From: Streptomyces sp. SCUT-3
GTDB taxonomy: Bacteria > Actinomycetota > Actinomycetes > Streptomycetales > Streptomycetaceae
Length of the DNA: 64,000 nucleotides
Direction: 5' to 3'
Assembly: GCF_014083985.1 (NCBI RefSeq)
Contig: NZ_CP046907.1
Coordinates: forward strand, 3,324,501 to 3,388,500
The notes under the pieces are model-generated. The model was given only the letters and a program-made list of their open reading frames with translations. It was not told the DNA's origin and searched no databases. The translations under genes and the position numbers were made by a program. This document shows, one piece after another, positions 18,099-20,966 of the stretch (the stretch's first letter is position 1; the number at the start of each line of letters is the position of its first letter).

Positions 18099-18111
18099 CA
18101 AGGAGTGGCCG

Positions 18112-18231
18112 ATGCTCTTCCGACGTGTTCCCCAGGCTCTGCGGCCCCAGACGGCCGCCCCGTCCTCGAACACCTCGGAGCGCCCGCATGCCCACTCAGA
18201 TCACCGCACTCGACGTCACCAAGGCCTATGA
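18112..18231 (+). CDS. Putative regulatory leader peptide of the ABC-F gene
   Basis: 39 codons from ATG 18112 to TGA 18229-18231. It has a textbook aaggag at 18100-18105, six bases before the ATG, stronger than that of the ABC-F gene itself. It begins MLFRRVPQAL and is rich in Arg, Pro and His. The peptide runs 44 bases into the ABC-F gene in another frame, so ribosomes on it would cover the ABC-F start. Ribosome-stalling leader peptides control several antibiotic-resistance ABC-F genes. Function is inferred from position and ribosome site only. Confidence 0.5.
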   Translation: MLFRRVPQALRPQTAAPSSNTSERPHAHSDHRTRRHQGL

Positions 18232-19951
18232 CGGCCGTCCCGTCCTCGAAGGGGTGACGTGCTCGCTCGCCGTCGGCGGGCGCACCGGCGTCATCGGCGA
18301 GAACGGATCCGGCAAGACCACCCTGCTGCGCCTGCTGGCCGGCCGCGAACGGCCCGACCACGGGCAGGTCGTCCTCACGGCCGAGGGCGGCACCGGCTAC
18401 CTCGCCCAGGACGCGCACCTGCCGCCGCACGCCACCGTGCAGGAGGTCCTCGACGACGCCCTGGCCGACCTGCGGGCGATCGAAGCCCGGATGCGCCTCC
18501 TGGAGTCCGCGATGGCCGACGGGCCGGGCGGAGCCGATCGAGCGGGCAGGGCCGATGTGGCGGGCAGGACCGACGGGCCGGGCGGGTCCGGCGGGGGCGA
18601 GGCCGTCCTGTCCGAGTACGGCGACCTGCTGACGCTCTTCGAACTCCGCGGCGGCTACGACGCCGACGCCCGCACCGAACGCGCCCTGCACGGCCTCGGC
18701 CTGGCCGGGCTGCGCCGCGACCGCGCCGCGGGCACCCTCTCCGGCGGCGAGCAGGCCCGGCTGCGCCTGGCCGCCGTGCTCGTCGCGGCCCCCGAGGTGC
18801 TGCTGCTCGACGAGCCCACCAACCACCTCGACGACACCGCCCTGACCTGGCTGGAGGACCACCTGCGCTCCCGGCGCGGCACGACGGCGGTGGTCTCCCA
18901 CGACCGGGTCTTCCTCGAACGCGTCGCCACCGACCTGCTGGAGGTCGACGCCGACCGCCGCCGGGTCGTCCGGTACGGCAACGGCTACGCGGGCTACCTC
19001 GCCGAGCGGGCGGCCGCCCGGCGCCGCCGGGTGCAGGAGTACGAGCGGTGGCGGGACGACGTCGACGCGGTTCGCGAGGCCGCGGCCACCACCGCCCGCC
19101 GGGTCGCTCCCGGCCGGGAGATGAAGGACCGCAACAAGATGGCCTACGGCCGGGCCGCGGGCCGGGTGCAGCAGTCCCTCGCGAGCCGGGTCCGCAACGC
19201 CGAGGAGCGTCTGCGCCGCCTGCTCGCGGACCCGGTGCCGCCCCCGCCCGAGCCGCTGCGCTTCGCCCCGCCCCTGCGCGCGGGAAGCGCGGCCCGTGCG
19301 GGCGGCGGGGACGGCGCGGACGGCGCGGTCCGCGCGGGTGGCGGGGTGCGGGGTGCGCTGCTCGACGCCGGCGGTGTCGCCGTCGCGGGCCGGCTCGCCC
19401 CCGTGAGCCTGACCGTCGCGGCGGGGGAGCGGCTGCTCGTCACCGGGCCGAACGGGGCCGGCAAGAGCACCCTGCTGCACGTCCTCGCCGGGGAGCTCGC
19501 CCCCGACGCCGGGACGGTCGCCCGCCGCGGGCGGATCGCCCACCTGCGCCAGGAGACCGCGCCCGGCCGGCCGGGGCAGACCCTGCTGGAGGCGTTCGCG
19601 CACGGCCGTCCCGGGCCGCCGCAGGAGCACGCCGAACGGCTGCTGTCCCTCGGGCTGTTCGACCGCGGACGGCTCGACGTGCCCGTGCGGGCCCTGTCCA
19701 CCGGGCAGCGGCAGCGCCTCGCCCTGGCCCGGCTGGTCGACGAACCGGCCGACGTCCTGCTGCTGGACGAGCCGACCAACCACCTCTCCCTCGCCCTCGC
19801 CGAGGAACTGGAGGAGGCGCTGGAGCACTACGACGGCGCGCTCGTCCTCGTCAGCCACGACCGCCGCACCCTGCAGCGGTGGAAGGGCTCCCGCCTCGAC
19901 CTGCGCGCCCCCGCCGGCTCCCCCGCGGAATCCCCCGCCGGGGGCCGGTGA
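18188..19951 (+). CDS. ABC-F ATPase, antibiotic ribosomal protection type
   Basis: 587 aa, cytoplasmic, no membrane segments. Two ABC domains in one chain: Walker A GENGSGKTT at 37-45, signature LSGGEQ at 184-189 and Walker B LLLDE near 205-209 in the first; GPNGAGKST, LSTGQRQRLALARL and LLLDEPTNHLS in the second. The NHLS after Walker B in the second domain, in place of NHLD, is usual in the Streptomyces macrolide-resistance ABC-F proteins (TlrC, OleB, SrmB type). The interdomain linker that reaches the ribosomal exit region lies around residues 265-345. The Vgb-type lyase gene 109 bases downstream supports a drug-protection role. A housekeeping ABC-F role remains possible. Confidence 0.88.
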   Translation: MPTQITALDVTKAYDGRPVLEGVTCSLAVGGRTGVIGENGSGKTTLLRLLAGRERPDHGQVVLTAEGGTGYLAQDAHLPPHATVQEVLDDALADLRAIEARMRLLESAMADGPGGADRAGRADVAGRTDGPGGSGGGEAVLSEYGDLLTLFELRGGYDADARTERALHGLGLAGLRRDRAAGTLSGGEQARLRLAAVLVAAPEVLLLDEPTNHLDDTALTWLEDHLRSRRGTTAVVSHDRVFLERVATDLLEVDADRRRVVRYGNGYAGYLAERAAARRRRVQEYERWRDDVDAVREAAATTARRVAPGREMKDRNKMAYGRAAGRVQQSLASRVRNAEERLRRLLADPVPPPPEPLRFAPPLRAGSAARAGGGDGADGAVRAGGGVRGALLDAGGVAVAGRLAPVSLTVAAGERLLVTGPNGAGKSTLLHVLAGELAPDAGTVARRGRIAHLRQETAPGRPGQTLLEAFAHGRPGPPQEHAERLLSLGLFDRGRLDVPVRALSTGQRQRLALARLVDEPADVLLLDEPTNHLSLALAEELEEALEHYDGALVLVSHDRRTLQRWKGSRLDLRAPAGSPAESPAGGR

Positions 19952-20060
19952 CCGGGTGCCCCGGCCCTCGCTCCGCCGTCCCACCGTCCTGCCGTCCCAC
20001 CGTCCCACCGCCGGACTGCCGGGCCGCCGTGTCCGCCCGTCCGAACAGGAAGGAGACCCT

Positions 20061-20966
20061 GTGCACCGCACTTCGGCCCGAGAGGTCGGGCAGACCGTCG
20101 TCGCCGGCCCGGGGGAGGGGCCGTACTCCCTGACCGCCGGTCCCGACGGGGCCCTGTGGATCACCCTGGTCCACGCCGGGGAGATCGCCCGGCTGGCTCC
20201 CGGCGGCCGGCTCGACCGGTACCGGCTCGATTCCGCCGACTGCGGTCCGTCGGTGATCACCGCCGGCCCCGACGGGGCCCTGTGGTTCACCCGGGCCCGT
20301 GACCACCGCATCGGGCGGATCACCACCGACGGGCGGGCCGGGTCGTTCCCCCTGCCCACCCCGGGGTGCGGCCCGTTCGGGATCGCGCCCGGTCCCGACG
20401 GGGCCCTGTGGTTCACCCAGATGCACGCCGACCGGGTGGGCCGCATCACCACGGACGGCACGGTGACGGAGTTCCCGCTGCCCACGAGCGGCGCCTTGCC
20501 GTCGTTCGTCGCCGCGGGGCCCGACGGCGCGTTGTGGTTCACCCTGAACAGGGGCGGCGCGATCGGCCGGATCGCGCTCGACGGCGAGGTCGCCCTCCAT
20601 CCCCTGCCCACCGCGGACGCGGCCCCGGTGGGCATCGCCTGCGGCGGGGACGGGGCCCTGTGGTTCGTCGAGATCGGGGCCGGTCAGGTCGGCCGCATCA
20701 CGACGGACGGGCGTGTCGAGGAGTTCCCCCTCCCGGACCGGGCCTGCCGGCCCCACGCGATCGCAGCCGACGCCTCCGACGCCTCCGGCACCTGCTGGTT
20801 CACCGAGTGGGGCGGCAACCGGGTCGGCTCCGTCACGCCCGGCGGCCGCATTAAGGAGTACGACCTGCCGGCCTCCTCCTCGGAGCCGCACGGCGTCGTG
20901 GTGGGCCCGGACGGGACCGTCCATGTCGCGATGGAGAGCGGGGCGGTCGCGCACCTGCGGCCGTGA
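20061..20966 (+). CDS. vgb: Virginiamycin B (streptogramin B) lyase-like protein
   Basis: 301 aa. Seven-bladed propeller made of repeats of the form GPDGALWFT...GRITTDG. In staphylococcal Vgb the lyase opens the streptogramin B ring using two His and Glu residues with Mg2+. The equivalents are present here: H232 in CRPHAIA, E275 and H277 in EPHGVV, and E292 in AMESG. Length and repeat order match the family. GTG at 20061 follows aaggag. Same strand as the ABC-F gene, 109 bases apart without a hairpin, so probably one transcript. It could also act on another cyclic depsipeptide. Confidence 0.9.
   Translation: MHRTSAREVGQTVVAGPGEGPYSLTAGPDGALWITLVHAGEIARLAPGGRLDRYRLDSADCGPSVITAGPDGALWFTRARDHRIGRITTDGRAGSFPLPTPGCGPFGIAPGPDGALWFTQMHADRVGRITTDGTVTEFPLPTSGALPSFVAAGPDGALWFTLNRGGAIGRIALDGEVALHPLPTADAAPVGIACGGDGALWFVEIGAGQVGRITTDGRVEEFPLPDRACRPHAIAADASDASGTCWFTEWGGNRVGSVTPGGRIKEYDLPASSSEPHGVVVGPDGTVHVAMESGAVAHLRP

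Follow-up and report, generated by a model that had tools for sequence, protein, structure and literature searches.

A streptogramin B lyase/ABC-F cassette of Streptomyces sp. SCUT-3 carries a predicted operator of a proposed dispersed TetR-family resistance regulon

A cassette at 18100-20966 of a 64,000-nucleotide stretch of the soil bacterium Streptomyces sp. SCUT-3 (NZ_CP046907.1, positions 3,324,501 to 3,388,500; referred to as a whole as the window) consists of a leader open reading frame (ORF), an ABC-F ATPase gene and a virginiamycin B (streptogramin B) lyase gene, and we consider it likely to be an operon that confers drug-inducible resistance to streptogramin B and macrolides and forms part of a dispersed regulon controlled by a TetR-family repressor. 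Comparison with related loci brings out the pairing of the ABC-F and lyase genes, an operator-like inverted repeat and its association with a TetR-family gene, a covarying hairpin in front of the ABC-F gene, and the presence of the same repeat beside other resistance genes. An earlier interpretation, the sequence-only reading, had seen a streptogramin-type cassette giving self-standing intrinsic resistance or exchanged with competitors; it was right in kind, too narrow, and is partly supported by what follows.

Results

The ABC-F gene (18188-19951, plus strand) starts at ATG 18188 and comprises 587 codons, its product being related to the ribosome protection proteins TlrC, CarA, OleB and SrmB (ARE4), and the lyase gene (20061-20966, plus strand) follows after a gap of 109 nt with a Shine-Dalgarno (SD) sequence AAGGAG, a GTG start at 20061 and 301 codons. 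A motif check finds two complete ABC cassettes in one ABC-F chain, each with a Walker A, a signature and a Walker B motif; the latter reads LLLDEPTNHLS in the second cassette, and Pfam matches are to ABC_tran and general P-loop/AAA families only. In NCBIfam the protein gives an ABCF_producer match (6e-194); its best match is NF000171 (TlrC/CarA/OleB/SrmB) at 645 bits, and since this lies below the curated cut-off of 800 we class it as a relative, not a member, of that family. The lyase matches Pfam Vgb_lyase PF24684 over residues 10-299 of 301 (8e-140; 465 bits against a gathering score of 50), aligns with the solved lyases PDB 2qc5 (6e-81) and 2z2n, and keeps H232, E275, H277 and E292, residues that line up with those lyases and that we take to be the catalytic set of streptogramin B lyase. 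All three genes named by the sequence-only reading, the NHLS of the second Walker B motif and the four lyase residues are therefore present, with matches far beyond chance, and conserved gene order, family assignment and the literature on ARE4 ABC-F proteins lend good support to a cassette of the streptogramin B type.

The lyase (E<=1e-50) occurs in 77 of 249 genomes of the same family, and an NF000171 match (E<=1e-150) in 58; by coordinates, the ABC-F gene lies directly upstream of the lyase gene on the same strand in 10 of the 77 lyase genomes, that of the window included. A non-exhaustive search of named genomes with the ABC-F protein gave 13 loci, six of them close, and at five the lyase gene stands next to the ABC-F gene: two in Plantactinospora and one each in Streptomyces toxytricini, S. 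lavendulae and Actinomadura hibisca. The S. toxytricini contig is also one of the ten same-family loci (L041 and L086 are the same contig, counted once), so that the pair occurs in the same order and direction at 14 distinct loci; G132 was left out of this count, its genes lying at the ends of separate contigs and its ABC-F being of another type (47%). The pair is thus common to distant actinobacteria, though most lyase genes stand elsewhere, and the two genes do not show the unrelated conservation patterns that would have spoken against a functional unit. Lyase relatives were also found in 33 of 72,556 plasmid records, among them one on a megaplasmid of Streptantibioticus cattleyicolor and one paired with Vat in Streptomyces sp. 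ADI95-16; the cassette of the window is chromosomal (single contig).

Alignment of the upstream regions revealed an inverted repeat with a consensus of about YTAAYGCRAC-N4-GTYGCRTTAR, represented in the window by a 24-bp dyad at 18078-18101 (plus strand), TTAGTGCAAC-TGTT-GTCGCACCAA. The spacer is mostly 4 bp and shortens to 2-3 bp in L084, L090, L117, L118, L121 and L122. We scored the dyad with a half-site matrix trained on 11 ABC-F/lyase sites, so that only the remaining sites are independent (the lone-lyase loci were not in the training set), and required a score of >=17 within -320 to +40 of the operon start, scanning the fetched loci and one whole genome. Across 75 loci (14 pairs and 61 lone lyases), 38 sites fall within this interval as against 2 elsewhere in 663,288 bases, and only 2 of 1500 shuffled upstream stretches reach the threshold. 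The dyad lies upstream of 13 of the 14 pairs and near the start of 22 of the 61 lone lyase genes. In the whole 6.08-Mb genome of the window, matches with at most one mismatch occur at two places only, the ABC-F promoter and a site just before a TetR-family gene (see below); since a reversed control pattern exceeds the dyad at up to two mismatches (16 matches against 11), only these close matches are meaningful. The window dyad scores 26.4, below most others. In seven lone lyase loci (L098, L102, L104, L107, L108, L113 and L115) the dyad begins 16-17 nt before the aligned lyase start and therefore overlaps the start region, which suggests either that the transcript lacks a leader or that translation starts at a later codon.

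In a tree built from 84 ABC-F rows (all listed NF000171 matches and the named-genome loci, with L086 and L219 dropped as copies), the 28 rows with the dyad all fall into one clade of 30 (SH-aLRT 95), and the 54 remaining rows are without it. The lyase gene follows the ABC-F gene in 14 of the 30 members. When all open frames around the loci were compared, a TetR-family gene was found beside the dyad, divergent from the ABC-F gene, and it adjoins the dyad in 26 members; at four further loci (L117, L118, L121 and L122) it is divergent from a lone lyase gene. The four members with no adjacent TetR gene are the genome of the window, G014, G005 and G211. In the window the divergent layout is not found, and the operator is flanked instead by a RelE-type/HTH toxin-antitoxin-like pair; the TetR orthologue of this genome lies 2.46 Mb away at 5801353-5801934, is 72% identical to the L085 protein and has its own dyad just before it. 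In G014 the TetR gene, also with its own dyad, is on another contig. G005 has no dyad and a TetR reading frame broken in the DNA-binding part, and G211 has neither a dyad nor a TetR gene at E<=1e-28. Operator and intact TetR gene go together in all 30 clade members, because the dyad is lost only in G005 and G211, and this distribution suggests that the dyad is an operator bound by the TetR-family repressor. In G176 the ABC-F and TetR genes share one place and the lyase gene, with its own dyad, lies far away. A second TlrC-type ABC-F gene in the genome of the window (G000:C1:206566-208194; L225) lacks the dyad and scores 699.7 bits with NF000171, above the cassette's own ABC-F.

The association extends to lyase genes that stand alone: a TetR gene (E<=1e-40) was found in 22 of 22 genomes whose lone lyase has the operator and in 15 of 39 whose lyase has none (Fisher p 8e-7, kinship ignored), and omission of the four TetR-adjacent cases leaves 18 of 18 (Fisher p 5e-6, kinship likewise ignored). 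We also inspected 20 further TetR loci, hand-picked and not random (fifteen of high identity not already fetched and five of lower identity, about 48-55%). The dyad reaches the threshold in 19 of them, a Vat-family streptogramin A acetyltransferase gene adjoins the TetR gene in 17, and in 7 of the Vat-bearing loci a macrolide glycosyltransferase (Mgt) gene comes next. In an NCBIfam check of four Vat and two Mgt proteins, plus the Vat and Ere proteins of L137, Vat scored 220-254 bits against a cut-off of 300 and Mgt 501-505 against 700 (above the 260 of the broader MGT family), so these Vat and Mgt proteins are relatives and not certified members. Locus L137 (G232) has the gene row TetR, dyad, Vat, Ere-like esterase and streptogramin B lyase, an operon-like stretch with predicted resistance to both streptogramins and to macrolides. 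The TetR neighbours that could be identified by family all disarm streptogramins or macrolides or protect the ribosome. None of the tested genes adjoins the TetR gene at L183, L185, L187, L188, L236 and L244; at L187, L188 and L244 a same-family TetR gene with a dyad stands beside a phosphatase/mutase-like gene and not a resistance gene, and may be a regulon member or a paralogue. The self-standing resistance proposed by the sequence-only reading is accordingly wrong or incomplete, since the cassette's operator is that of a TetR regulon; the regulator is encoded elsewhere in the genome, and the other regulon members include Vat, Mgt and Ere genes.

Upstream of the dyad, at 18038-18075 (plus strand), lies a predicted WblC/WhiB7-type promoter: GAAAAC at 18038-18043, 3 bp, a -35 element TTGCCC at 18047-18052, 17 bp, and a -10 element CACCGT at 18070-18075. 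Box, -35 element and spacings fit the published WblC consensus GAAAWY-N3-TKGMNN-N16..19-TANNNT (PMC7157823), and the -10 element departs from it once, with C for T at its first base. With T or C accepted there, this is the only copy of the full motif on the two strands of the 64-kb window; within the 30-member clade the strict box and -35 pattern fits the window only. Transcription would be expected to start 7-8 bp downstream of the -10 element, near 18082-18083 and inside the dyad, so that a bound repressor would block the promoter, and about 30 nt of mRNA would precede the leader. A scan for sigma-70 consensus promoters and intrinsic terminators found nothing, a WblC-type promoter not being covered by such a scan.

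The leader ORF (18112-18231, plus strand; ATG 18112, 39 codons, SD AAGGAG at 18100-18105) overlaps the start of the ABC-F gene by 44 nt, and in most clade members its start lies 76 nt before that of the ABC-F gene. GTG 18011 was ruled out as an alternative ABC-F start, since relatives begin at the position of 18188 and leader and dyad lie upstream. The motif CCGAAGC, conserved in leader codons 3-5 of the relatives, is complementary to the ABC-F SD region GCTTCGGAG, and in the window leader codons 3-7 (18119-18130) pair with that region (18168-18179; GGAG at 18177-18180) in a predicted RNA hairpin spanning 18119-18179 on the plus strand. Among the 30 clade members, the 12 that share the 76-nt spacing gave sequences of equal length; in these, 91.2% of cells are paired, and 6 pairs are changed on both sides, in 11 cells. 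The cell count, the pairing percentage and the covariation score were unreached in 500 shuffles, the number of pairs changed on both sides was reached in 21, and slid versions of the hairpin pair at 24-50%. The window helix contains one C-C mismatch, and its RNA fold has a z-score of -2.68. The leader peptide named by the sequence-only reading thus stands as a conserved element, but the pairing of its early codons with the ABC-F SD points to a translational attenuator and not just a peptide gene; a conserved peptide under coding-type constraint is unsupported, and the pairing explains the conserved stretch. With a ribosome halted on the first codons of the leader, the 5' arm would be covered and the ABC-F SD would become accessible, and toeprints described for ARE5 leaders agree with such a stalling model (PMC12421871). 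We rejected the idea that the dyad itself forms a hairpin in the leader RNA that masks the SD, because it does not lie at a constant distance from the leader; its distance to the ABC-F start varies from -104 to -207. In two Plantactinospora loci (L039 and L040) the leader ORF has three codons (MLR-stop and MIR-stop), about 75 nt before the ABC-F start, and recalls the short upstream ORFs of other ABC-F genes.

The toxin-antitoxin-like pair, a RelE/Gp49-type toxin-like and an HTH antitoxin-like gene at 17175-17908, occupies the place immediately before the cassette that in relatives is taken by the divergent TetR gene, and probably entered together with the cassette. The sequence-only reading saw no biosynthetic genes nearby; the flanking genes (LolA-like and rarD) look like core genes and are direct neighbours in G007 (L249, 244-2457), an apparent empty site; the roughly 4-kb stretch made up of the toxin-antitoxin-like pair, the ABC-F gene and the lyase gene therefore appears to be an insertion into a core region, which fits a unit that moved away from its regulator. 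This intact empty site is the only one among 29 other rarD loci examined; at L255 a polyprenyl synthase gene adjoins rarD.

Discussion

We propose that, when no drug is present, the TetR-family protein encoded 2.46 Mb away would bind the dyad at 18078-18101 and block the promoter. A drug, most likely a streptogramin or a macrolide, would release the repressor, and WblC would activate the promoter through the GAAAAC box; the hairpin between leader codons 3-7 and the ABC-F SD would still hold ABC-F translation low until drug-stalled ribosomes open it. One transcript could then yield both an ABC-F protein that would dislodge the drug from the ribosome and a lyase that would linearise streptogramin B. 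Resistance to macrolides and streptogramin B is ascribed to ARE4 ABC-F proteins such as TlrC (PMC10201436), and since this spectrum overlaps the drug of the lyase, the double protection against streptogramin B suggested by the sequence-only reading is plausible and a fair prediction; macrolide protection would be expected from the ABC-F protein alone.

Several observations weigh against this interpretation. NCBIfam cut-offs are missed by the ABC-F protein for the ABC-F families (645 against 800, and 375.4 against 380) and by the lyase for VgbA/VgbB (275-283 against 600). The dyad is lacking near the start of 39 of the 61 lone lyase genes and in the fetched stretch of nine Vat-lyase pairs (L093, L100, L123, L134, L140, L142, L143, L147 and L276), so that much of the lyase family lies outside the regulon. 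Three of the 20 further TetR loci have no Vat gene (L236, L240, at a contig edge, and L244), and related genomes inflate the counts. As to the attenuator, the hairpin test covered 12 of the 30 clade members, four of the others (L088, L041, L089 and L042) folded without the same clear structure, and the six members of the L207-L220 group have no leader ORF by the criteria used. Conservation in leader codons 2-12 is 0.77 at third positions and 0.70 at first and second positions, and because third positions are as conserved as the others, the leader peptide itself may not matter. The dyad-less Vat-lyase pairs, one of them on a Streptomyces plasmid, form a second, separately controlled arrangement.

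An alternative that we regard as unlikely is that the ABC-F protein serves mainly against another drug class or as a translation factor, its link to the lyase reflecting shared general ribosome-stress regulation and not streptogramin B. We know of no substrate for the 30-member ABC-F clade, and 16 of its members have no adjacent lyase gene, as this alternative would allow; it accords less well with the remaining regulon enzymes, which are of the Vat, Vgb, Mgt or Ere types, and with the nearest curated family, TlrC/CarA/OleB/SrmB, which is stated to act on macrolides and streptogramin B (PMC10201436).

It is rather unlikely that the cassette is a free-standing intrinsic pair activated by WblC only, its dyad a relic over which TetR lost control after the operon moved. 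Such a history would account for the missing TetR neighbour in the window, for a dyad score below most others and for the sister locus in G005, which lost both the operator and an intact TetR gene, and S. coelicolor vgb is reported to belong to the WblC regulon (PMC7157823). The window dyad nevertheless keeps its distance unchanged, the genome has just one other close match to it, which stands before the TetR orthologue, and unlinked lyase genes in other genomes keep the dyad too, all of which argue against a relic. That the dyad is chiefly an RNA hairpin, or a promoter element conserved for some reason other than TetR binding, is very improbable: it abuts the leader SD in several members, but its distance to both leader and ABC-F start varies, it is also found before TetR genes, Vat genes and lone lyases, and the only ABC-F clade members without it are those whose TetR gene is broken or missing.

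Beyond control of this operon by a TetR-family repressor, we lean slightly towards a wider picture, in which one TetR-type sensor of streptogramins and macrolides would command a dispersed actinobacterial regulon comprising Vat against streptogramin A, Vgb against streptogramin B, Mgt and Ere against macrolides, and an ARE4-like ABC-F protein at the ribosome. The operator would travel with the moving units, in this case into a core site with the sensor left behind, and the ABC-F unit would add WblC activation and a one-hairpin attenuator, so that a single operon could respond to the drug itself, to stress on the ribosome and to ribosome stalling. The two streptogramin types, A and B, are produced jointly and act jointly, so that a bacterium gains from countering both at once. 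If this picture is true, the operator shared by Vat, Vgb, macrolide-inactivating enzymes and ABC-F would mark a common sensor for the streptogramin pair, a ready biosensor, as well as an obvious evolutionary reservoir of genes that are known in clinical bacteria. Searching for the dyad is a simple way to find more resistance genes that have yet to be named, and the cassette makes it testable how a drug-specific repressor, a general stress activator and an attenuator work together in one operon.

The components of this system are already known, and as far as a literature search shows, with most subscription papers beyond its reach, the regulon that joins them is undescribed. The ABC-F protein resembles TlrC, CarA, OleB and SrmB, whose NCBIfam model NF000171 is the closest, in having two cassettes and no membrane part and in its occurrence in Actinobacteria (PMC6723617); it differs from them in its score below 800, its place in a separate, dyad-marked clade of 30 and its operon-like pairing with a lyase gene in the window and at 13 other loci. 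The lyase belongs to the same family as VgbA and VgbB (PDB 2z2n and 2qc5) by sequence and by the four residues listed above; unlike them, it scores below their exception cut-offs and represents an actinobacterial branch paired with ABC-F or Vat.

The Streptomyces genes ptr and varS encode efflux pumps. Their regulators are the nearest parallels to the repressor proposed here, Pip being described as a TetR-type repressor of the streptogramin resistance gene ptr (PMC5743821) and VarR as a streptogramin-responsive TetR repressor of varS (PMC5787919). In the present regulon the repressor would act on ABC-F, Vgb, Vat, Mgt and Ere genes rather than on an efflux gene, and the 24-bp dyad with its 10-bp arms is set apart, by description, from the Pip operators, given as two directly repeated 4-bp palindromes 3 bp apart. 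The leader recalls the attenuation of are5sc, tiaA, lmrC and cplR, in which a short upstream ORF and a structure hide the SD of the ABC-F gene or terminate before it (PMC12421871, PMC10201436). In our case a single hairpin pairs the leader's codons 3-7 with the ABC-F SD, no intrinsic-terminator-like site was found, and the predicted attenuator sits on an ARE4-related gene beneath a TetR operator. Finally, the promoter motif is that of the WblC/WhiB7 regulon, in which vgb is listed for S. coelicolor (PMC7157823); to this pattern the cassette adds what would be a dedicated repressor operator overlapping the start point.

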